A stretch of DNA of 64,000 nucleotides from Arthrobacter sp. Soil762 (GTDB lineage: Bacteria > Actinomycetota > Actinomycetes > Actinomycetales > Micrococcaceae): assembly GCF_001428335.1 (NCBI RefSeq), contig NZ_LMSG01000019.1:394757-458756 (forward strand), given 5' to 3'. Below the pieces are notes generated by a model. That model had not been told where the DNA came from and did not search any database. It worked only from the letters and a program-made list of their open reading frames with translations. The first letter of the stretch is position 1. Every line of letters starts with the position of its first letter. The position numbers and the translations under genes were made by a program. Of this stretch, positions 50,019 to 61,398 are shown piece by piece.

Positions 50019-51302
50019 TCAGGCTTCCCTGGCGATCGTTTCCTTGGTGGAGGTGGTTTCGTCGGGCTGCAGGGTTGTGCCGGGCCCGCCGGTTGGGCGG
50101 TTGAAGTTCTGCATCATCAGTCCGATGATGGACCGCTTGCCCTGAGACTTGTTGTAGACGTCGAACGCCACGGCGATCAGCAGGACCAGGCCCTTAATGA
50201 TCTGGGTGAGGTCGGCGCCGACGCCGAGGAGCTGCAGACCGTTGTTCAGGACTGCCATGACCAGGCCACCGATGATGGAACCGATCACGGTGCCCACGCC
50301 GCCTGTCACGGCCGCGCCGCCGATGAAGACTGCGGCGATGGCGTCCAGTTCCCAGCCGACGCCGTCGAACGGGCCCGAAGCGGTGGAGCGGCCCACGAAG
50401 ATCATGCCCGCGAGGCCGGCCAGGATGGACATGTTCATCATGACCAGGAAGTTGACCTTCTTGGACTGGACGCCGGAGAGTTCGGCTGCATGCCGGTTGC
50501 CACCCACGGCGTAAATGTGGCGGCCCACCACGGTCTTGGAGGAGACGAAACCGTAAATCAGGACCAGGACGGCGAGGATCAGGCCGGGGATGGGGAAGGA
50601 CGTGCCCGGACGGCCGGTGGCAAAGAGGTACGTGGCGTACAGGATGGCCGCGCAGACCAGGACAAGCTTCAGGACGACCACCCAGGTCTCTGCCACTTCG
50701 GCGCCCAGCACCTTCGCGGTCCGGCGGCGGCGGATTTCGCTGAAGATCACAAAGGTGACAGCAGCGAGGCCGATCAGCAGGGTGAGGTTGTTGTATCCGG
50801 TGCTGGGCCCAACCTCAGGAAGGTAGCCGGAACCCAGGTACTGGAAGTCATTGGGTACCGGGATGGTGTTGGACTTGCCCACGAACTGGTTGAAGCCGCG
50901 GAACAGCAGCATGCCGGCCAGGGTGACGATGAACGCGGGAATGCCCACGTACGCCGTCCATAGACCTTGCCAGGCTCCGATCAGCGCACCGAGCAGCAGG
51001 CCGAGGAGCACTCCGGCGTACCAGGGGATACCCCAGTCGCGGATGGCCAGGGCCACTGTCACACCCACAAATGCGGCCACGGATCCTACGGAGAGGTCGA
51101 TGTGACCGGCGATGATGACCAGCACCATGCCGATGGCGAGGATGAGGATGTACGAGTTGCCATTGAAGAGGTTGATGACGTTGCCCGGGGTGAGCGTGCG
51201 GCCCTCTGTGGTGAATTGGAAGAAGATGATCAGCGCGACCAGAGCGAAAATCATCCCGAATTGGCGGGTGTTGCCGCCAAAAAGCTTCTTAAGCGCGTTC
51301 AT
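50019..51302 (-). CDS. mmsB: Sugar ABC transporter permease (MmsB/GguB-like)
   Basis: The 427-residue CUT2 permease has about ten or more helices and the family hallmarks GHIDLSVGSVAAFVG and AVGGNRHAAELSGV, with FIGGAAVTGGVGTVIGSIIG near the C-terminus. Length and order match GguB/MmsB of ChvE systems. It follows mmsA after 45 bases and precedes chvE by about 50. A hydrophilic tail of 40 residues ends the protein. Confidence 0.93.
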   Translation of the reverse strand: MNALKKLFGGNTRQFGMIFALVALIIFFQFTTEGRTLTPGNVINLFNGNSYILILAIGMVLVIIAGHIDLSVGSVAAFVGVTVALAIRDWGIPWYAGVLLGLLLGALIGAWQGLWTAYVGIPAFIVTLAGMLLFRGFNQFVGKSNTIPVPNDFQYLGSGYLPEVGPSTGYNNLTLLIGLAAVTFVIFSEIRRRRTAKVLGAEVAETWVVVLKLVLVCAAILYATYLFATGRPGTSFPIPGLILAVLVLIYGFVSSKTVVGRHIYAVGGNRHAAELSGVQSKKVNFLVMMNMSILAGLAGMIFVGRSTASGPFDGVGWELDAIAAVFIGGAAVTGGVGTVIGSIIGGLVMAVLNNGLQLLGVGADLTQIIKGLVLLIAVAFDVYNKSQGKRSIIGLMMQNFNRPTGGPGTTLQPDETTSTKETIAREA

Positions 51303-51347
51303 TGTTTCAGTCCTTGTATCTGGAAGGATCTGGAGGATTCCAGAGGG

Positions 51348-52904
51348 TCAGGCGGCCTTGCGGGCGGAGGTCATCAGCTTCATGAGGCTTTCCTGGCTCG
51401 CTTCCTCTTTGTTCAGGACGCCGGTGATGGCGCCCTCGAAGATGGTGTAGATGCGGTCGGAAAGACCCAGCAGCTCGGGCAGCTCGGAAGAGATGACCAC
51501 GACGCCCTTGCCCTGGTTGGCCAACTGCTGGATGATGCCGTAGATCTCGTACTTGGCGCCCACATCGATGCCCCGCGTCGGTTCATCCAGGATGAGGAGG
51601 TCCGGGTCCGTGAACATCCACTTCGCCAGGACCACCTTCTGCTGGTTGCCGCCCGAGAGCTTGGCGACGCCTTCCTCCACGGAGGGCGCCTTGGTACGCA
51701 GTGCCTTGCGGTACTGCTCGGCTACTGCGAATTCCTTGGCAGTGTCCACCACGCTGTTTCGGCTGATCTTCTTGAGGTTCGCTGAAACTGTGGTGGCCTT
51801 GATGTCATCGAGCAGGTTCAGGCCCAGGGACTTTCGGTCCTCCGTCACATAACCCAGTCCGGCGTCAATCGCCTGCCGAACGTTTTTGAGGACGACTTCC
51901 TTGCCGTCTTTGTAGATGTGGCCATTGATGAACCGTCCGTACGAGCGGCCGAAGACAGAACGGGCCAGCTCGGTGCGGCCGGCACCCATCAGCCCGGCGA
52001 ATCCCACAATTTCCCCGCGGCGTACGAAGAAGTTGGAGCCCTTGCAGACAAGCCTGTCCTGGATGGCGGGGTGGCCCACGGACCAGTCCTTGACTTCGAA
52101 GAACACCTCGCCGATCTTCGGCGTGTGGTCAGGAAAGCGGGACTCGAGGGCCCGGCCCACCATGCCCTTGATGATGCGGTCCTCGTCGACGCCGTCGGCC
52201 TTGACGTCGAGCGTTTCGATCGCCTTGCCGTCCCGGATGATGGTGATGGAATCGGCGATCTGCTCAATCTCATTGAGCTTGTGGGAAATGATGATCGAGG
52301 TGATGCCCTTGCCCTTGAGGCCGAGCATCAGGTCCAGGAGATGCTGGGAATCGGATTCGTTGAGCGCAGCGGTGGGCTCGTCCAGAATGAGGATCTTGAC
52401 CGACTTGTTCAGGGCCTTGGCGATCTCCACCAGCTGCTGCTTGCCGACGCCGATCTCCTTGATGGGGGTGTCCGGGTCTTCCCTGAGGCCCACCCGGGCC
52501 AGCAGCTCCGTGGACCGCTGCCGGGCCTCCGCCCAGTTGATGACGCCGCGTTTGGTCGGTTCGTTGCCCAGGAAGATGTTCTCCATGATGGACAGTTCCG
52601 GGATCAGGGCCAGCTCCTGGTGGATGATCACAATGCCGGCGTGCTCGCTCGCGCGGATGTCCTTGAACTGCTGGACCTCGGTCTGGTACACGATGTCGCC
52701 GTCGTAGCTGCCGTACGGGTAGACGCCCGAAAGCACCTTCATCAGCGTGGACTTGCCAGCGCCGTTTTCGCCGCAGATTGCGTGGATCTCGCCGGCCTTG
52801 ACCCGGAGGCTTACTTCCGCCAAAGCCTTGACGCCGGGAAATTCCTTGGTAATTGAGCGCATCTCGAGGATGACCGGGTCAGTGTGCGTGGTGTGGGACG
52901 ACAT
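51348..52904 (-). CDS. mmsA: Sugar ABC transporter ATPase (MmsA/GguA-like)
   Basis: The 518-residue protein has two fused ATPase domains. The first has [14 protein letters not shown] and [12 protein letters not shown]; the second has the degenerate P-loop [14 protein letters not shown], the signature [15 protein letters not shown] and [14 protein letters not shown]. This double layout is standard for CUT2 importers. First gene of the operon; a candidate ROK operator lies about 90-110 bases upstream. Confidence 0.94.
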
Positions 52905-52992
52905 TTGTCCTTACGCCTCCAATGCATGACTTCTTTGTCCGCCCAGCAAAGCGCAGGGTCGTCTGATGAAAAAGTAAACTGGATCACACGGG

Positions 52993-53015
52993 TTGTCGTC
53001 AAGTCTTTAACGCAA
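52993..53015. promoter_or_regulatory. Candidate ROK operator before mmsA
   Basis: The core GTCAAGTCTTTAACG (approximate dyad CGTYAA-N4-TTAACG), flanked by TTGTC and CAA, is repeated before the ROK gene at 54254-54276 with 19 of 23 bases identical. On the gene strand it overlaps a TTGACG -35-like element. Confidence 0.6.
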
Positions 53016-53035
53016 TTAGCGGGATAACGAAACGG

Positions 53036-54226
53036 CTACGTACGCCGGATCCCGGCATGCTGGAACACCAGTGCGGCTGCTCCCAAAGCCTCCGCGCGGT
53101 CCCCAAGTGAGGACATCGTCAGTGTGGTGGTCTCGCCGATCACCGGCACTGCATGCCGGATAAGCCCCCGCCGAATGGGGTCGAGCAGCAGGTCGCCCAG
53201 GCCCGCAAGGGGACCGCCCACCACGATGACTTCAGGGTTGATCAGGTTCGCGACGTTGCCCAGGGCGCGTCCAACTGCCAGGCCTGCATCGTCCACCACC
53301 CTGAGCGTTGCGGAGTCGCGCGCCAGGGCTTTGCGCACGATGTCCGCAGGTGTGAGGGGTGGGTCTTCCCCGCGGCCGAGCAGCTCCATCATGGTGGTGG
53401 TGGAGGCAATGGTTTCCAGGCAGCCGCGGTTGCCGCAGCGGCACACGAGTCCGTGCTCGTGGATAGTGGCATGGCCGATTTCGCCGGTAATGCCCACGTT
53501 GCCGTAGTAGGGCGCGCCGTTGAGGATCAGGCCCGCGCCGATGCCCGAGCCGATCTTGAGGAACATCAGGTTGCTCACGCCCGAATGTGGCCCCCAAGTA
53601 ACCTCGGACCAAGCGCCAAGATTGGCGTCGTTGTCAACGAAGACGGGTATTTTGAGGGTTTCCTCCAGATGGTGAAGGATGTTGATTCCCACCCATTCCG
53701 GGAGGATGGCGCCCTGCGCCACGGTGCCGGTCCGGCGGTCGATGGGGCCGGGAATCCCGACGCCGGCGCCGACCACCAGGGTCCGCTCCACGCCGCTTTG
53801 CTGCAGCAGTTTGTCCAGTAGCCCGACGGCTGCCCGGATGCCTTCGTCGGCCTGGTGTCCCAGTGGCAGCAGGACGGATTCCTCGGCGATCACGTGGTAG
53901 CTCAGGGACGCCAGGACCACACGGAGATGCCGCCGCCCGAAGTCGATCCCCACCGCCACCGCGCCGTTGCTGTTGAGCCGCACATTGAGTGCCCGGCGGC
54001 CGGAGCTGGTGATCGGTTCGGTCGACGCCAGGCCCGCATCCTGCATGATTTTGACGATATTGGAGACCGTGGCGGTGGAGAGGCCGGTCTGGCGGGCAAG
54101 CTCGGCCTGGGTGGACGGACCGCTCATGAGGGTCTCGATGATCCGTTGCTGGTTCAGTTGCCGGAGGGCTGACTGGGATCCCGGATTTTTTGGCTTGCTC
54201 CTCGTTGAGCGCGGTGTGGCGGACAT
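53036..54226 (-). CDS. ROK-family transcriptional repressor
   Basis: The 396-residue protein has an N-terminal winged helix-turn-helix (QQRIIETLMSGPSTQAELAR through STATVSNIVKIM). The ROK sugar-kinase-like domain has the zinc motif HGLVCRCGNRGCLET and EIGHATIH. Such proteins (XylR/NagC type) release DNA on binding a sugar. It is directly upstream of the sugar ABC operon on the same strand, and both have the same 23-bp upstream motif. It therefore probably represses the importer and itself. Confidence 0.92.
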   Translation of the reverse strand: MSATPRSTRSKPKNPGSQSALRQLNQQRIIETLMSGPSTQAELARQTGLSTATVSNIVKIMQDAGLASTEPITSSGRRALNVRLNSNGAVAVGIDFGRRHLRVVLASLSYHVIAEESVLLPLGHQADEGIRAAVGLLDKLLQQSGVERTLVVGAGVGIPGPIDRRTGTVAQGAILPEWVGINILHHLEETLKIPVFVDNDANLGAWSEVTWGPHSGVSNLMFLKIGSGIGAGLILNGAPYYGNVGITGEIGHATIHEHGLVCRCGNRGCLETIASTTTMMELLGRGEDPPLTPADIVRKALARDSATLRVVDDAGLAVGRALGNVANLINPEVIVVGGPLAGLGDLLLDPIRRGLIRHAVPVIGETTTLTMSSLGDRAEALGAAALVFQHAGIRRT

Positions 54227-54276: not shown

Positions 54277-54432
54277 GGAGTCTGTCGGATAAGACGAAAT
54301 GATGGGACGATCCGCCCACTCCCAGGCTTGGCCGGTGCAATTGGCCCGGGATGCCGTTCAGGGCCGGTGGCTAGGCTGGAAAAGCCGGACACATACTTCC
54401 TGTGGCCGTCCTGATCATATGAGGTGGTAACA

Positions 54433-55227
54433 GTGCTGCTGGCCCTGATGCAGGCAAACGCCCGCGTGCTGGACGTCGATGCGAACTGCGCTGCCCTGGA
54501 TGCGGCGGCCCGGGCGGCTGCCGCGGCAGGCGCAGCAGTCCTTGTCACTCCCGAACTGTTTGCCGTGGGCTATGCCCCGGTGAGGGTTCGCGCGGAGCTG
54601 GACCCCACTGGGCTTCCCGCCATCAGGGAGGCGCTGGCAGGCATCGCACGCCGCTACGGAATCGGACTGGTCTACAGCCTGCCGTCAGTCACGGAAAGGG
54701 GCAGCTGGCACATCACCTCCACGCTCGTGGACGCCACGGGGGGTGAGCTTCTCACCTACGCAAAAGTGCACCTCTTTGGCGATGACGAACGCGCGGCGTT
54801 CAGCCCCGCGGAGGCGGGTCCCGCCGTCGTCGATTTCAACGGCTTCCGGACGTCAATGGTGATCTGCTATGACGTGGAATTTCCGGAAACGGTCAGGGCC
54901 GCCGCGCTGGGTGGGGCAGAGCTGCTCCTGGTGCCCACCGCACTGGCGCACGGTTTCGAGACAGTTCCCCAGGTCCTGCTCCGGGCCCGCGCGCTGGAAA
55001 GCCAGCTGACCATCGCCTATGCCAACCACTCAGGAACCGAGGACGGCTGCGAATTCCTCGGCGGCAGTGTCATTGCCGGACCGGATGGTTCGCTGCTGGC
55101 CACGGCGGGACCGGGAGCCGAACTCCTGTTCGCCGAAGTGGATCCGGACGCCGCCCGACATGCCCGTGACGTGGTGCCCTATCTCCGGGAACGCCGCCCG
55201 GAGCTCTACCGGTTCTGGGGCATCTGA
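54433..55227 (+). CDS. davA: 5-aminovaleramide amidohydrolase-like nitrilase-family enzyme (DavA-like)
   Basis: The 264-residue enzyme keeps the carbon-nitrogen hydrolase triad: Glu in VTPELFAVGY, Lys in YAKVHLFGDD and Cys in MVICYDVEFPE. The KVHLFGDD and ICYDVEFPE segments, the length and the end RRPELYRF match Pseudomonas putida DavA as I remember it. That enzyme hydrolyses 5-aminovaleramide to 5-aminovalerate and ammonia. The davB-like gene in the same locus supports this. I chose GTG 54433 because GAGGTGG lies just upstream; GTG 54424 is in frame. It converges on the PucR gene. Confidence 0.82.
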   Translation: MLLALMQANARVLDVDANCAALDAAARAAAAAGAAVLVTPELFAVGYAPVRVRAELDPTGLPAIREALAGIARRYGIGLVYSLPSVTERGSWHITSTLVDATGGELLTYAKVHLFGDDERAAFSPAEAGPAVVDFNGFRTSMVICYDVEFPETVRAAALGGAELLLVPTALAHGFETVPQVLLRARALESQLTIAYANHSGTEDGCEFLGGSVIAGPDGSLLATAGPGAELLFAEVDPDAARHARDVVPYLRERRPELYRFWGI

Positions 55228-55238
55228 GGCATCTTGCC

Positions 55239-56864
55239 CTACCCGTCCTCCAGGCTGTCCACGTACTGCAGGGCAATCCACAGCTCTGCCCGCACCTGGG
55301 CGGAGCCAAGGTCCGTGGCCAGCAGCTCGGCCAGTGCGTTGATCTGGCGCCGCACGCTGTTCCGGTGCATCCCCAGGACCTTGGCAGTGGCATCCCAGTT
55401 GCCGTTTTCGCCCAGCCACGACTTCAGGACACTGAGTTGGGGGCTGATTCGGTCAGGCTCCTGCGCCAGGATCGGTTCCAGCAGCCGGGCGGCAAGCATG
55501 GTGCCGGCGCTGCGGCCCAACAGCCCCGTGACCGACCACGTCACGTCATCCACGCGCACGCTTTCTCCGCTGGCCTGGACGCGGGCCCGCAGCGACGCCG
55601 CGCGCTGGTATGCGGCAGGAAGTCCGGCCATTTCCGTCGGATCGCCCACCACCAGGCGCCAGCCCAGTTCCTCCACTTCATGCAGCAGCGTGTCGTCCAC
55701 CTTGAACCGGGTGACGGCGGCAAACCCATAGTCCGTCAGTTCCACCATCTTCGTGTCGAACAGCCTGCGCCACTGCAGCAGTTCCCTGACAGGGCCATCG
55801 GCCGACGCGGGCGCCGACGCGTCCGCCCGCACGCCCTGAACCACCCGGAGGGCACCGGACCGGGTTCCGGAAACGCTTTGCGCCAGGAGGTCCCTGAGGG
55901 CGTTCAGCTGCCGGGTTGAGCCGGCGGCCAGGCTCTCCGGATGCAGCAGCAGCGCCGTTGCCAGCTGGCTGGGGGCGAGCGAGCCGCTGGTGCGCTGGCG
56001 GACCAGCAGTTCCAGCAGCCCCACTACCGAGGACACCACACTGTTCTGCGCCGGGGTCAGCGCCCTGTCCGTCCCGAGAATCAAAGCGCCGAGGGTGGCG
56101 TCCTTGGTGCTCCGGAGGGGGTGCCCGAACACCAGGGCAGAGCCGGGAATGTCGAAGGAATCCATTTCCACCCGGGGGCCGCTGCCGCCGAGCAGCCGGT
56201 CGAGGATCTGCTGCAGGGCGGGACGTTCGACGCCGGTGCCCGCCCGGGCGCGGACCCTTCCGTCCGCGCCGACCAGCACTGCCCACACGGGAACCCGCTG
56301 GGCCAGTGCGGCCAGGAGTTCATGCTCGGGGCGGGCGGAGAGGACTGCGCGCATCAGCTGCCGGTTGATGTCCGCCAGCTGCCTGAAGGCTTTGGCGTTA
56401 TCCGATTCGAGCAGCTGCGAAAATTCCAGCCCGATGGCAGCGAACGGCACAGTGCCTGGTACCTGAACCAGAGTCAGGTTATGCCGGACGCAGGCCTTCA
56501 CCAGTGCCTCCGGCACTGCGTCGAAGTAGGGTTCCAGCCCGAAGCCCAGGGCCCCCACCCCGGCTCCCACCAGACGCCGCACGTACGCGTCGACCCGGGG
56601 CTGGTTGCCTGCCTCGCCCACAAACGGCAGACCCGCCGTGAGGAGGAACTCACCGTCGAGCAGGTACGGCGTGGGGTCCTCCAGCTCGCTGGGCTCCACC
56701 CAGCGCAGCAGGCCGGAACCGTTGCCGCCGTCGTGCAGAATCGTCAACTCCGGCGGCAACTTTTCCAGGAACTGCTCCAACGTGACGGCGCTGAGCCGCT
56801 CCGCACCGGTCCCCCTTCCGGTTACGGCTCTGGTTCCCGCTCCGGCGGCAGCTTCAGGCGACAT
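55239..56864 (-). CDS. PucR-family transcriptional regulator
   Basis: The 541-residue protein has an N-terminal PucR sensor domain (VTLEQFLEKLPPELTILHDG through VGALGFGLEPYFDAVP), a GGDEF-like middle part without active motif, and a C-terminal helix-turn-helix (WLGENGNWDATAKVLGMHRN, SVRRQINALAELL). PucR-type regulators control nitrogen-compound catabolism. ATG at 56864 overlaps the alanine racemase end by 11 bases, so the two are cotranscribed. It is the likely regulator of the surrounding lysine genes. Confidence 0.88.
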   Translation of the reverse strand: MSPEAAAGAGTRAVTGRGTGAERLSAVTLEQFLEKLPPELTILHDGGNGSGLLRWVEPSELEDPTPYLLDGEFLLTAGLPFVGEAGNQPRVDAYVRRLVGAGVGALGFGLEPYFDAVPEALVKACVRHNLTLVQVPGTVPFAAIGLEFSQLLESDNAKAFRQLADINRQLMRAVLSARPEHELLAALAQRVPVWAVLVGADGRVRARAGTGVERPALQQILDRLLGGSGPRVEMDSFDIPGSALVFGHPLRSTKDATLGALILGTDRALTPAQNSVVSSVVGLLELLVRQRTSGSLAPSQLATALLLHPESLAAGSTRQLNALRDLLAQSVSGTRSGALRVVQGVRADASAPASADGPVRELLQWRRLFDTKMVELTDYGFAAVTRFKVDDTLLHEVEELGWRLVVGDPTEMAGLPAAYQRAASLRARVQASGESVRVDDVTWSVTGLLGRSAGTMLAARLLEPILAQEPDRISPQLSVLKSWLGENGNWDATAKVLGMHRNSVRRQINALAELLATDLGSAQVRAELWIALQYVDSLEDG

Positions 56865-58068
56865 GCGGCACACCGTCTTCAGGTTCCTGGTAGTCGGGGC
56901 ACTCGTAGGCCCTGGGCAGGCGCGGCGCGATCCGGTTGATGATTTCGTCGCCGTGGCTGCCGATGGCCGAGCCCCATTCGTCCGCGCTCGCCGCCCCGGT
57001 GCCCGGATCACCGAACAGCACGGCCGTGTCGCCGACGGAAACTCCGTGGGCTTCCGGGCCGAGGTCCACCATGAACTGGTCCATGCACACCTTGCCGATC
57101 ACGGGCACCCGCCTGCCGCCCAGTTGGACAATGTTGCGTCCCGAGATGCCTTTCGGGATACCGTCCGCATAGCCGAGGGGGATCAGCCCCAGGTACCTTG
57201 CCTCATGGGTGATGGCCTGGTGTTCGTAGCTCACGCCGGTGCCGGCCGGAACCTTCTTCATGAGCACCACGGGAGCCGTGACAGTCAGGGCCGGGCGCAG
57301 CCCGAAATCCGCGGGGTCAAGATGGTCGGCGGGCGCCAGGCCATAGATGGCCAGCCCGGCCCGCACCATGTCGAAGGCAAACTCAGCGCGGTCCAGGATG
57401 TTGGCAGAGCTGGACACATGCCTCAGCTCCGGGTCCAGGCCGCCTTCCCTGGCCTGCCGTACGGCTTCCCCGAAGGCTTCCACCGCTGCGGCGTTCCCTG
57501 GATGGGCCGGTACGTCGGCCCAGGCCAAGTGGGTCCAGACGCCCCGGACAGTGAGGGTCCCCTCGCGCTCGGCGTTGCGTGCGGCGGCCACGAGGTCAAG
57601 CCAGTCTTCCGCGCGGGCGCCGCCGCGGCTCAACCCGCTGTCCAGCTCAAGGTGGACCGCGGCCGGCCTTCCGAGCGTGCGGGCAATGCCGGCCACGACT
57701 TCCAGCTGGGCGGTGCTGCCCAAGGACAGGTCCACGTCGTTTTCCACAGCTTCGCGAATGATCTCGCTGGACGCTGTGGCGAGGTACAGCCAGGACAGCA
57801 CCGGCGCCGTGATGCCTGCGCGGCGTAGCGCAAGAGCCTCCGTGAGCTGTGCCGTTCCGAGCCAGTCAGCGCCGGCAGACAGGGCAGCCTGCGCCACCTC
57901 GACAAGCCCGTGGCCATAGGCGTTGCCTTTCACCACCGCCATGAAGTGCGGTGCGGGAGTGAGTTTCCGGAGGGCGCGGACATTATCGGAAATCGCGGCC
58001 AGATCAACGCTGACCCGGCCGGAAAGCACTGCCGAAGGCGTGCTGGTCTGTTGTGCATTACGTCTCAT
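56854..58068 (-). CDS. alr: Alanine racemase-family PLP enzyme
   Basis: The 404-residue protein has the PLP lysine (Lys47) in MAVVKGNAYGHG, where most family members read KADAYGHG. The catalytic tyrosine segment GTGVSYEHQ lies near 281, followed by ARYLGLIPLGYADG, and VCMDQFMVDLG is present. Fold and length are those of Alr. It is in an operon with pucR and opposite a lysine-type permease and monooxygenase, so it may racemise lysine or D-alanine for catabolism rather than supply wall D-Ala. No signal peptide. Substrate cannot be decided from sequence. Confidence 0.85.
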   Translation of the reverse strand: MRRNAQQTSTPSAVLSGRVSVDLAAISDNVRALRKLTPAPHFMAVVKGNAYGHGLVEVAQAALSAGADWLGTAQLTEALALRRAGITAPVLSWLYLATASSEIIREAVENDVDLSLGSTAQLEVVAGIARTLGRPAAVHLELDSGLSRGGARAEDWLDLVAAARNAEREGTLTVRGVWTHLAWADVPAHPGNAAAVEAFGEAVRQAREGGLDPELRHVSSSANILDRAEFAFDMVRAGLAIYGLAPADHLDPADFGLRPALTVTAPVVLMKKVPAGTGVSYEHQAITHEARYLGLIPLGYADGIPKGISGRNIVQLGGRRVPVIGKVCMDQFMVDLGPEAHGVSVGDTAVLFGDPGTGAASADEWGSAIGSHGDEIINRIAPRLPRAYECPDYQEPEDGVPHVA

Positions 58069-58168
58069 GCCAGAACACTATAGGTCATTTTGCACAATTA
58101 TGAGAGGTGGCTCACATGCCTAAGCTGGGCGAGGGGAAACGACAACTACTCACGAACGGACGTCAACG
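58069..58168. promoter_or_regulatory. Divergent promoter region of the lysine locus
   Basis: This 100-base gap separates the starts of alr-pucR and the permease-davB operon and must hold both promoters. An AT-rich stretch (TTTTGCACAATTATG) lies near the alr side. I could not assign a PucR site. Confidence 0.4.
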
Positions 58169-59707
58169 ATGACTGTGCCCACCTACACAGAACGCCGGCC
58201 GGCACCGCCTGCCGGCAGGCCCGGCCTGGCCGCGCAGCTGCTGCGCCGCAAGCCGATCGGACAGATGGTCAATGAGGCCGAAACAGGCCATGGCGGCACC
58301 CGCCTGATCCGCAGCTTTGGCGTTTTCCAGTTGACCATGATCAGCGTCGGCGCGACCCTGGGAACCGGTATTCTGGTGATCCTGGGCGAATCGGTTCCGC
58401 TGGCCGGGCCGGCCATCTGGATCTCCTTTGCCATCGCTGGACTCGCCGCCCTGCTGTCCGCGGTGTCCTACGCCGAAATGGCCGGCCTGGTTCCGGTGGC
58501 AGGTTCCAGCTATTCCTACAGCTACGCCACTTTGGGCGAGGGCATGGCCTGGATCTGTGGCTGGTGCCTCGTGCTCGAATACGCAGTCTCGGTCGCGGCG
58601 GTGGCAGTTGGGGCCGGCCAGTACGTGAACGAGTCCCTGGCGGTCTTCGGCCAGTTCCTGCCCGACGCAATCTCCCAGCCACCCGGAGACGGCGGCGTGA
58701 TGAACGTCCCGGCGATGGTCATCGTTCTGCTCGCCATGATCCTGCTGGTTCGCGGCGCCAAGGAAAGCGCCTGGATTAACACCGCCATCGTGGTGATCAA
58801 GGTGGGAATCCTGATCTTCTTCTGCGCCGTGGCTTTCACCGCCTTCAGCGCCGGCAACTTCGAGCCTCTCCTGCCCATGGGCGCAGCTGGTGTCTCAGCC
58901 GCCGCGTCCAGCGTCTTCTTCTCCTACATCGGCTTCGACGCGGCGTCCACGGCCGGTGAGGAAGCCCGCAATCCCAAGCGCGACCTGCCGCGGGCCATCA
59001 TGCTCTCCATGCTGATCGTCACCACCATCTATGTCCTGGTTGCCGTCGCGGCCGTCGGCGCCCGTCCCTGGGGCTGGTTCGACGGTAATGAAGCAGCACT
59101 CGTGAAGATCCTTGAGGAAACCACCGGACAGCCGTGGATCGCCCTGGTCTTCGCCGTCGGCGCGGTCCTTGCCATCGCCAGCATCGTGCTGACTGTCCTT
59201 TACGGACAGACGCGCATTCTTCTCTCCATGGCCCGCGACGGGCTCATTCCAAAAATCTTCGGCCGGGTCTCCGCGAGGACCGGCACACCGGTTGCCGGCA
59301 CCCTGATCGTGGGCCTCCTCGTGGCAGTCACGGCCGGCCTGGTTCCACTCGGCGCCTTGGCTGACGCCACCAGCATCGGAACCCTGTTCGCCTTCGCCCT
59401 GGTCAACGTGGCCGTGATCTACCTGCGCCGCACCCGGCCCGAACTCAAGCGGACCTTCCGGGTCCCGCTGTTTCCGCTCACGCCCATCCTCGGAGCGCTC
59501 ATGTGCGCCTACCTCATGGCCAACCTGGGCGCCGACACCTGGGTGACCTTCGGAATCTGGATGCTGGTGGGCCTGGCCGCCTACTTCGGCTACGGACGCC
59601 GGAACTCCAGGGTAGCGGCGCTGAGCCACGAGGAATACCGTGAGCTGAGCAGGCCGGAATCTTCAACGCCGTCCACCCCCGAACAATCGAAGGCAGAGCT
59701 TTCATGA
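58169..59707 (+). CDS. APC-family amino acid permease, probable lysine transporter
   Basis: The 512-residue permease has 12 or so helices and the APC superfamily pattern: GATLGTGILVILGESVPLAG in helix 1, FFSYIGFDAASTAGEEARNP at the helix-6 region and YGQTRILLSMARDGLIP. It belongs to the cationic or broad amino acid transporter branch. Its stop overlaps the DavB start in ATGA, so substrate is imported for that enzyme; lysine is the inference. Confidence 0.88.
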   Translation: MTVPTYTERRPAPPAGRPGLAAQLLRRKPIGQMVNEAETGHGGTRLIRSFGVFQLTMISVGATLGTGILVILGESVPLAGPAIWISFAIAGLAALLSAVSYAEMAGLVPVAGSSYSYSYATLGEGMAWICGWCLVLEYAVSVAAVAVGAGQYVNESLAVFGQFLPDAISQPPGDGGVMNVPAMVIVLLAMILLVRGAKESAWINTAIVVIKVGILIFFCAVAFTAFSAGNFEPLLPMGAAGVSAAASSVFFSYIGFDAASTAGEEARNPKRDLPRAIMLSMLIVTTIYVLVAVAAVGARPWGWFDGNEAALVKILEETTGQPWIALVFAVGAVLAIASIVLTVLYGQTRILLSMARDGLIPKIFGRVSARTGTPVAGTLIVGLLVAVTAGLVPLGALADATSIGTLFAFALVNVAVIYLRRTRPELKRTFRVPLFPLTPILGALMCAYLMANLGADTWVTFGIWMLVGLAAYFGYGRRNSRVAALSHEEYRELSRPESSTPSTPEQSKAELS

Positions 59708-61398
59708 CCGTCGCCACCGAACTCCCGGCTTCTGACCCGTCCAGCACCCAGGCTGGTCCCATCACCATGCTGAACCCCGATTTTCCGTTCAGCTACGACC
59801 ACTACCTCGCCCATCCGGCAGGGCTCGGCGCGGTTCCGCCGGAGCTGTACGGCACCGAGGTGGCAGTTGTAGGGGCGGGCCTTTCGGGCCTCGTCACGGC
59901 CTACGAACTGATGAAGCTGGGCCTGCGCCCTGTCATCTATGAAGCGGACCAGATCGGCGGCCGCTTGCGGACGGCCGGTTTTCCGTCCGCTCCCGGCGTG
60001 GTGGCCGATCTGGGCGGCATGCGGTTCCCCGTGTCGGGCAGGGCTTTCTACCACTACGTGGACCTGCTGGGCCTGGACACCCAGGATTTCCCCAACCCGC
60101 TGGCACCCGTCACGTCCAGCACCGTGATCGAACTGGCCGGCCAGAAGTACTACGCCGAGACCGCCCAGGACCTGCCGCCGTTCTTCCGCGAGGTGGCCGA
60201 TGCCTGGAAGGCCGCGGTGAACGACGGCGCGAAGTTCGTCGAAATGCAGGAGGCCATCCGGGCCCGGGACACGGGCCGGATCAAGGAACTCTGGAACGAG
60301 CTGCTGCCGCTCATGGACGAGCAGACCTTCTATGGGTTCATCGCCGGGAGCGAGTCATTCAAGGAAGCCGGCTTTGCGCACCGGGAGGCCTTCGGCCAGG
60401 TGGGTTTTGGCACCGGTGGCTGGGACACCGACTTCCCCAACTCCATCCTCGAAATCCTCCGCGTGGTCTACACCGACGCCGATGACCAGCACCGGCTCAT
60501 CAGCGGGGGAGCCCAACGGCTGCCCGAGGCACTATGGCAGCACGCGCCGTCGGGCATGGCCCACTGGCCGGACGGAACGTCCCTGGCGTCGCTCCACTCC
60601 GGCACGCCCCGCGGGGCTGTGGGCAGGATCAGCCGCGATGCCGATGGCGACCTCCGGATCAGGGAGCGCTGGGGCCGTGAGGCCAGCTACCCTGCGGTGG
60701 TGACCACGTGCCAGTCCTGGCTGCTGTCCACCCGCATTCACACCGAGGAGGCACTGTTCCCGGCCGAACTGTGGACTGCGATCGAGCGTTCGCACTACAT
60801 GCAGTCCTCCAAGACGTTTGTGATGGTGGACAGGCCGTTCTGGAAGGACGTCGACCCGGACACCGGCCGTGAAGTCCTGTCCATGACACTGACGGACCGG
60901 CTGAACAGGGCCACCTACCTCCTGGATGACGGCCCGGACAAGCCCGCCGTGATCCTGCTGTCCTACACGTGGAACGATGACGCGCTCAAATGGCTGGCGC
61001 TGGACGCCGACGAACGCGTTGAGCTGATGCTGCACTCGCTGGAGCAGATCTACCCTGGCGTGGACATCGCCAGCCACATCGTGGGCCAGCCCATCACGGT
61101 TTCCTGGGAAGCGGACCCCAACTTCATGGGCGCCTTCAAAGCGAACCTGCCGGGGCATTACCGCTACCAGCAGCGCCTCTTCACGCACTTCAAGCAGGAC
61201 AAGCTGCCCGAATCGCAGCGCGGGATCTTCCTCGCCGGGGACGACGTGTCCTTCACGGCGGGCTGGGCCGAAGGCGCCGTGACCACCGGCCTGAACGCGG
61301 TTTGGGGTGTGGTGAACCATCTGGGCGGGACATCGGCGCCGGGCAACCCCGGACCCGGTGAACTCCTGGACGCCATCGGGCCCATCGCCTTGGACTGA
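59704..61398 (+). CDS. davB: L-lysine 2-monooxygenase-like flavoenzyme (DavB-like)
   Basis: The 564-residue flavoprotein has an FAD Rossmann motif ([20 protein letters not shown]), followed by VIYEADQIGGRLRTAGF and DLGGMRFPVSGRAFYHYVDL. It shares long blocks with P. putida DavB as I know it: GWDTDFPNSILEILRVV, MQSSKTFVMVDRPFWKD, VSWEADPNFMGAFKANLPGH and the end NPGPGELLDAIGPIALD. DavB oxidatively decarboxylates L-lysine to 5-aminovaleramide, the substrate of DavA. The ATGA overlap with the permease gene shows one operon. Another L-amino acid as substrate is less likely. Confidence 0.88.
   Translation: MTVATELPASDPSSTQAGPITMLNPDFPFSYDHYLAHPAGLGAVPPELYGTEVAVVGAGLSGLVTAYELMKLGLRPVIYEADQIGGRLRTAGFPSAPGVVADLGGMRFPVSGRAFYHYVDLLGLDTQDFPNPLAPVTSSTVIELAGQKYYAETAQDLPPFFREVADAWKAAVNDGAKFVEMQEAIRARDTGRIKELWNELLPLMDEQTFYGFIAGSESFKEAGFAHREAFGQVGFGTGGWDTDFPNSILEILRVVYTDADDQHRLISGGAQRLPEALWQHAPSGMAHWPDGTSLASLHSGTPRGAVGRISRDADGDLRIRERWGREASYPAVVTTCQSWLLSTRIHTEEALFPAELWTAIERSHYMQSSKTFVMVDRPFWKDVDPDTGREVLSMTLTDRLNRATYLLDDGPDKPAVILLSYTWNDDALKWLALDADERVELMLHSLEQIYPGVDIASHIVGQPITVSWEADPNFMGAFKANLPGHYRYQQRLFTHFKQDKLPESQRGIFLAGDDVSFTAGWAEGAVTTGLNAVWGVVNHLGGTSAPGNPGPGELLDAIGPIALD

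Follow-up and report, generated by a model that had tools for sequence, protein, structure and literature searches.

A monooxygenase and amidase cassette of Arthrobacter, predicted to act on arginine and carrying an added racemase gene

Which amino acid is broken down by the enzymes encoded near the end of a 64,000-nucleotide stretch of Arthrobacter sp. Soil762 DNA (contig NZ_LMSG01000019.1, positions 394,757 to 458,756, hereafter the window)? The stretch comes from an actinobacterial genome of 4.5 Mb, and its cassette encodes a flavin adenine dinucleotide (FAD) L-amino acid 2-monooxygenase, an amidase, an amino acid permease, a regulator and a racemase. Streptomyces provided the first description of an arginine 2-monooxygenase (EC 1.13.12.1), and lysine and arginine 2-monooxygenases are easily confused. 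An earlier account made from the DNA letters alone (the sequence-only reading) proposed that lysine is taken up and converted to 5-aminovalerate by DavB-like and DavA-like enzymes. The four gene types that it named, amidase, PucR, APC permease and flavin monooxygenase, are all found where it placed them, on the evidence of open reading frames (ORFs) and Pfam matches; the racemase gene was absent from its list. It probably described the right kind of pathway and the wrong amino acid. On the basis of sequence comparison, the main substrate of the cassette is predicted to be L-arginine, possibly with basic amino acids more broadly, and we give this a probability of roughly 0.6.

This assignment is based partly on the genes found beside related monooxygenases. 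Of 347 genomes searched in the order, 31 have a monooxygenase match, and 23 of these are outside the genus. Loci from 22 of these 23 were read, 19 with fetched context and three (L141, L144 and L145) with flanks of at most 1.5 kb; G543 was left out, and L149, L150, L156, L161, L164 and L090 end at contig ends. A ureohydrolase 60–70% identical to one in the window's own genome (contig C19, 135 kb) is present in 13 of the 22. It lies 12–159 bp from the monooxygenase in 11 loci, and at 2.1 and 4.2 kb in two. The 13 loci represent three families and three genera, and should not be counted as 13 independent events. The two distant ureohydrolases accompany a thiamine diphosphate (ThDP) enzyme, and the same gene pair occurs in the window's own genome. 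When compared with solved structures, the linked ureohydrolase is closest to the guanidinobutyrase 3nio (277.6 bits), which we take to be the P. aeruginosa enzyme, followed by 3-guanidinopropionase (267.8 bits), proclavaminate amidinohydrolase (252.1 bits) and agmatinases (233 bits or less). For comparison, a DavB-type set was formed by taking, from at least 557 loci, the 80 most similar to the enzyme of Pseudomonas AIU 813 (79 titled Pseudomonas and one a metagenome-assembled genome titled Paucimonas). The guanidinobutyrase-like gene occurs in none of these 80 within their stored flanks of up to 7 kb, and in none of eight more distant Streptomyces-like loci within the stretches read. These neighbours favour arginine, because a guanidinobutyrase beside an arginine-consuming enzyme would act on its guanidino product, and beside a lysine-consuming enzyme would make little sense.

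The amidases were compared in the same way. The window amidase, whose closest solved structures are the amidases 5jqn and 3hkx, is 49–52% identical to the amidases of five linked loci (L147, L150, L151, L153 and L154), and 34–43% identical to its counterparts in the 80 DavB-type loci. All 18 genus loci read in context, all eight Streptomyces-like loci and all 80 DavB-type loci have an amidase homologue no more than 10 kb from the monooxygenase. Among linked loci with long flanks, a homologue of the window amidase is found in five of ten.

The window monooxygenase is 61% identical to the lysine oxidase/monooxygenase of Pseudomonas AIU 813 (3we0), and the range is 61–63% when Pseudomonas DavB is included. 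As the sequence-only reading supposed, it is closer to these enzymes than to tryptophan 2-monooxygenase (TMO): the AIU 813 enzyme (L-AAO/MOG) scores 815 bits, against 209 bits. These scores, together with the presence of Asp238, rule out a tryptophan or phenylalanine 2-monooxygenase; the iaaM-type relatives on plasmids are only about 30% identical. The AIU 813 enzyme accepts lysine, ornithine and arginine, and holds the cationic end of each with Asp238. Its Cys254 governs the balance between oxidase and monooxygenase activity, so that monooxygenase activity in C254I is below detection, and its Gln258 reaches the head of the amino acid through water. Im et al. associate replacement of Ala515 by Gly with the wider pockets of TMO and PAO (PMC5832979). 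In the window enzyme Asp238, which binds basic side chains, is retained, as are other substrate contacts. All 80 DavB-type sequences have Asp238, Cys254 and Gln258 together with Ala515. The window enzyme has Ala254, His258 and Gly515, and the DavB pocket set is thus missing from it. The same Ala/His/Gly combination is found in all 13 guanidinobutyrase-linked monooxygenases and in all eight Streptomyces-like ones. It also occurs in six of the nine unlinked loci of the order, the remaining three having Met/Gln/Gly (L155), Ala/Gln/Gly (L164) and Cys/Gln/Ala (L163). The last of these, from the window's own family, has an amidase and a GABA (gamma-aminobutyrate) transaminase homologue beside the monooxygenase, and from its sequence is likely to be an actinobacterial lysine module.

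A tree of 58 sequences, in which the TMO outgroup has a very long branch and joins another long row, places the window enzyme outside the DavB branch. That branch (support 100/99) lies within a ten-row branch (100/99) that also holds three actinobacterial rows. The window enzyme falls in a 15-row clade (97/95) with two guanidinobutyrase-linked rows, and the remaining 11 linked rows group with two other rows in a 13-row clade (100/98). The branching order of the DavB, window and linked-row clades lacks support.

The later steps would have to be supplied from elsewhere in the genome. The sequence-only reading placed DavT and DavD outside the window, and consistent with this, tblastn with the genome's own genes (E 1e-12) detects no homologue of the GABA transaminase, a second aminotransferase or an aldehyde dehydrogenase within it. 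The genome has three ureohydrolases. The guanidinobutyrase-like one is at C19:135233-136516, on the same contig as the cassette and 318 kb from it. One of the three adjoins a ThDP enzyme, whose matching models include 5-guanidino-2-oxopentanoate decarboxylase, below the cut-off. There is one GABA transaminase over the cut-off, together with seven weaker matches. All but one of the 101 genus genomes have the guanidinobutyrase-like gene, and its co-occurrence with the monooxygenase within the genus was for this reason dropped as uninformative. At C19:236671 (L097), a class III aminotransferase is seen by eye beside an apparent FAD-linked oxidase and an aldehyde dehydrogenase, which is possibly an omega-amino acid cluster.

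On the basis of these observations, we propose that flux through the pathway would run as follows. The permease would import arginine, and the monooxygenase would convert L-arginine and O2 to 4-guanidinobutyramide and CO2. The amidase would then release ammonia to give 4-guanidinobutyrate, which the guanidinobutyrase-like ureohydrolase on the same contig would split into GABA and urea, leaving GABA to be consumed by the genome's transaminase. The alr-family racemase would convert a D enantiomer to the L form required by the monooxygenase, and PucR would govern the divergent promoter.

The main competing explanation is a DavB/DavA-type route, from L-lysine through 5-aminovaleramide to 5-aminovalerate, which would then be used by DavT/DavD-like enzymes elsewhere. 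The overall identity of 61–63%, the retained Asp238 and other contacts, and the presence elsewhere in the genome of class III aminotransferases and an aldehyde dehydrogenase (for example at C19:236671) would all suit it. It is nevertheless disfavoured by the guanidinobutyrase-like neighbours of related enzymes (13 of 22), by three pocket residues unlike those of the 80 DavB-type sequences, by the separate position in the tree, and by an amidase only 34–43% identical to those of DavB-type loci, and we regard it as unlikely. What survives of the pathway in the sequence-only reading is the uptake of a basic amino acid, its oxidative decarboxylation to an amide and the hydrolysis of that amide; the proposed conversion of lysine to 5-aminovalerate suits the evidence less well than arginine does. 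The enzyme may still act on lysine, alone or alongside arginine, given its Asp238 and the substrate range of the AIU 813 enzyme (PMC5832979). A generalist enzyme, accepting arginine, lysine and ornithine about equally in a cassette that scavenges basic amino acids (including D forms after racemisation), has a precedent in the three substrates of the AIU 813 enzyme (PMC5832979), and would account for both Asp238 and the acidic gate of the racemase described below. The genes neighbouring its relatives indicate a single third step specific to one side chain, which makes this improbable. More improbable still is an enzyme that acts mainly as an oxidase, producing keto acid and H2O2, in which case the amidase would have some other role. 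The replacement of Cys254 by Ala, next to His258, would be compatible with this, given the undetectable monooxygenase activity of AIU 813 C254I (PMC5832979), as would the five of ten long-flank linked loci that have no amidase homologue. The constancy of the amidase in the genus, Streptomyces-like and DavB-type loci argues against it.

Several observations weigh against arginine as the main substrate. There is no ureohydrolase in the window locus, and nine of the 22 non-genus loci of the order, as well as all eight Streptomyces-like loci, have no ureohydrolase neighbour. All ten congeners that lack the monooxygenase have the guanidinobutyrase-like gene, which must therefore serve another route too. 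Congener G033 has the monooxygenase and no close guanidinobutyrase, with only one weaker ureohydrolase, so that a strict requirement for guanidinobutyrase is contradicted by one genome. NCBIfam agmatinase models match the ureohydrolase above their curated cut-offs, although 3nio remains the nearest structure. No homologue of the window amidase is found in L152 or L158-L161, even among weak matches, and no amidase of another family is present among ten neighbouring ORFs in L152, L158 and L160. At L091 a ureohydrolase (48% identical) is 1.4 kb from a divergent monooxygenase that has Phe254, Gln258 and Gly515. Pocket residues and ureohydrolase linkage are not tightly coupled, as the six unlinked loci with the same residues demonstrate, and the uniformity of the DavB-type loci is partly built in by their selection for closeness to AIU 813. 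Finally, Asp238 binds lysine as well (PMC5832979). Confidence in the arginine assignment is lowered by the amidases missing from linked loci, the agmatinase matches and the selected nature of the DavB list.

The cassette is well conserved in the genus. Counting the window's own, 91 of 101 congeneric genomes carry the monooxygenase, and its relatives there are up to 98% identical. All eight window-type loci of the genus that were read in context (L045, L054-L060) contain the amidase, pucR, permease and monooxygenase together, and four of the eight contain the racemase; in L055 the amidase is about 4 kb away from pucR. The association of these genes is far beyond chance, because of the frequency of the monooxygenase and the constancy of the four genes. 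Outside the genus, two of the eight Streptomyces-like loci have a 62% identical permease near the monooxygenase. A different transporter is seen in L158-L161, which combine the guanidinobutyrase-like gene, the monooxygenase and an MFS transporter (78–79% identical across the four) without a window-type amidase. A plasmid-collection entry from Arthrobacter sp. StoSoilB13 has a monooxygenase 87.5% identical to that of the window, and matches 36% of the window's last 24 kb at 81%. The monooxygenase matches 165 plasmid records; the 60 matches listed, chosen as a spread, comprise this one Arthrobacter entry, three at about 56%, and others at about 29–33%.

Eight genomes of the genus (L043, L046-L052) have a second monooxygenase, 65–70% identical to the window enzyme, with Asn238. 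All eight of these loci have an operon-like order of permease, hydantoinase/carbamoylase-family hydrolase, amidase and monooxygenase, and the permease resembles asparagine permeases. The hydrolase of L046 scores 289.5 bits with TIGR01879 (cut-off 204). As a guess from the sequence, this paralogue is a candidate for a citrulline 2-monooxygenase pathway. A literature search for such an enzyme listed nothing relevant. AIU 813 D238N is inactive on everything tested, in a paper that makes no mention of citrulline (PMC5832979). A third form, with Ser238, lies beside a permease and an amidase in two genomes (L044 and L053).

The racemase matches form a class of their own within the genus, with identities of at least 76%, against at most 49% for the other alr matches listed. 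The cassette racemase is found in 37 of the 101 congeners, always 1.6–1.9 kb from the monooxygenase (37 of 37 copies), and the copy in G030 is interrupted by a stop. In the sample of 347 genomes of the order it is present in six, all but one of them from the genus and the sixth from a different genus of the same family, and from the coordinates all six copies are beside a monooxygenase match. The racemase scores 286 bits with the alanine racemase model TIGR00492 (cut-off 168). A housekeeping role is unlikely, since the genome holds another alr with an ordinary Tyr gate.

The racemase residues were examined in 35 aligned rows that represent 32 genomes, three of which (the window's among them) appear twice. 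Positions were mapped via 1vfh and 6scz, whose numbering agrees with the residues cited in PMC3485190. The pyridoxal phosphate (PLP) lysine, the catalytic Tyr and the Arg motifs (Arg136 and Arg219) are retained in all 35 rows. In all 35, the Tyr354 gate is replaced by Asp, Lys129 by Glu, and the Gly after the catalytic Tyr by Glu. Tyr354 restricts Alr to alanine (PMC3485190, PMC4517790), and charged gate residues lowered alanine racemisation (PMC4517790). Neither the gate Tyr nor Lys129 is found in the lysine-preferring racemases Lyr and Bar. When D-Lys is docked into a model of Lyr, Thr391 at the gate position contacts the side-chain nitrogen; T391Y leaves about half of the lysine activity, and Ser394 was thought by the authors to be more important (PMC3485190). 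A gate Asp would favour a cationic side chain, and we infer a preference of the enzyme for basic amino acids. For lysine and arginine catabolism, P. putida relies on another racemase, which is periplasmic and of broad specificity (PMC6034422). We suggest tentatively, and with the odds somewhat against it, that the cassette racemase acquired its action on basic amino acids inside the Alr lineage through the acidic residues Asp354 and Glu129 and feeds D-arginine or D-lysine to a monooxygenase specific for the L form, and that the third enzyme marks the substrate of the monooxygenase: a ureohydrolase would denote arginine, a hydantoinase/carbamoylase-type hydrolase citrulline (with Asn238), and a transaminase lysine.

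The features of the cassette are listed in Table 1.

Table 1. Positions of the cassette features within the window
Feature	Position	Strand	Family match or remark
Amidase of the nitrilase superfamily, predicted to hydrolyse 4-guanidinobutyramide (or 5-aminovaleramide)	54424-55227	+	CN_hydrolase PF00795, E 1.6e-39
PucR-family regulator	55239 to about 56864	-	PF07905 (PucR) and PF13556 (HTH_30)
Alanine-racemase-family enzyme, 404 aa, predicted racemase for basic amino acids	56854-58068	-	PF01168 and PF00842
Candidate PucR operator block, GTGCA ... TGCAC arms	58053-58095	no strand	divergent control region; operator role inferred
APC amino acid permease	58169-59707	+	AA_permease_2 PF13520
FAD L-amino acid 2-monooxygenase, predicted to act on L-arginine	59704-61398	+	Amino_oxidase PF01593, E 5.6e-52

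The start of pucR was set from the L045 orthologue, which begins MSPEAAAG; a longer ORF extends to 57011. With this homology-based start, the racemase gene, which sits between pucR and the permease gene, runs 11 bases into pucR. The amidase gene and pucR are convergent, with a gap of 11 bases. The coupling of permease and monooxygenase genes put forward in the sequence-only reading is borne out, as the permease stop (59707) overlaps the monooxygenase start (59704). The best NCBIfam models for the permease are BcaP (491.8 bits), TIGR00909 (486.8 bits) and the cationic TIGR00906 (317.7 bits), none of which reaches its curated cut-off. By eye, the GTGCA ... TGCAC block is kept across nine compared cassettes. 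In two racemase-less loci the start of pucR takes the position of alr: in L055 pucR begins MRRNA, as the window racemase does, and in L058 its start codon is the ATG of that block. This suggests that alr was inserted or deleted immediately behind a leader common to both arrangements. No common k-mer of the regions upstream of the amidase and permease genes, such as would put the amidase under the permease's regulator, recurs in more than one genome. On the 5' side of the cassette, positions 50019-54226 presumably encode a sugar ATP-binding cassette transporter and a ROK-family regulator, as judged by reading the sequence.

The pathway is of a known type, and with its unusual added racemase the cassette would be a variant of it. 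Searches on lysine 2-monooxygenase with Arthrobacter, on arginine 2-monooxygenase, and on Arthrobacter with guanidinobutyrate did not reveal a description of the cassette in the titles and abstract openings of the matches listed, which include few subscription journals. A rule using residues and gene neighbourhood is offered here to separate the lysine and arginine enzymes, and the three substrate predictions (arginine, citrulline and D-basic amino acids) become accessible to simple enzyme assays. As the monooxygenase is so frequent in the genus, its substrate affects how nitrogen recycling is annotated in these actinobacteria.

Four known systems can be compared with the cassette. The AIU 813 enzyme and P. 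putida DavB (EC 1.13.12.2) share with the window enzyme the fold family, the FAD-binding region, Asp238, Arg102, Tyr416, Trp418, Phe473 and Trp516, and like it they have a nitrilase-type amidase as partner; DavB and DavA of P. putida have been described (PMC12930585). They differ in having Cys254, Gln258 and Ala515, where the window enzyme has Ala, His and Gly and forms a separate branch. The linkage of relatives to a guanidinobutyrase-like gene, and the PucR and racemase genes of the window cassette, also set it apart. Lysine monooxygenases are often misannotated, and have been distinguished through the family of the neighbouring amidase (PMC12462448). Marginolactone biosynthesis is known to employ an arginine monooxygenase together with a 4-guanidinobutyramide hydrolase (PMC5082578, PMC10322714). 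In the marginolactone-producing Streptomyces, the first two chemical steps match those predicted for the window cassette; the acid then becomes an activated CoA starter unit in those organisms, whereas guanidinobutyrase and GABA catabolism are predicted here (PMC5082578). The cassette racemase shares with Alr/DadX the PLP lysine, the catalytic Tyr, the Arg136 and Arg219 motifs and both Pfam domains, but differs in that Asp takes the place of the gate residue Tyr354, and Glu that of Lys129, in all 32 genomes aligned. With Lyr and Bar it shares the loss of the gate Tyr and of Lys129. It is distant from them (86.9 bits with 4dza, against 321.6 bits with 1vfh), and where they need Asn after a conserved Arg, the cassette copies have Gly.

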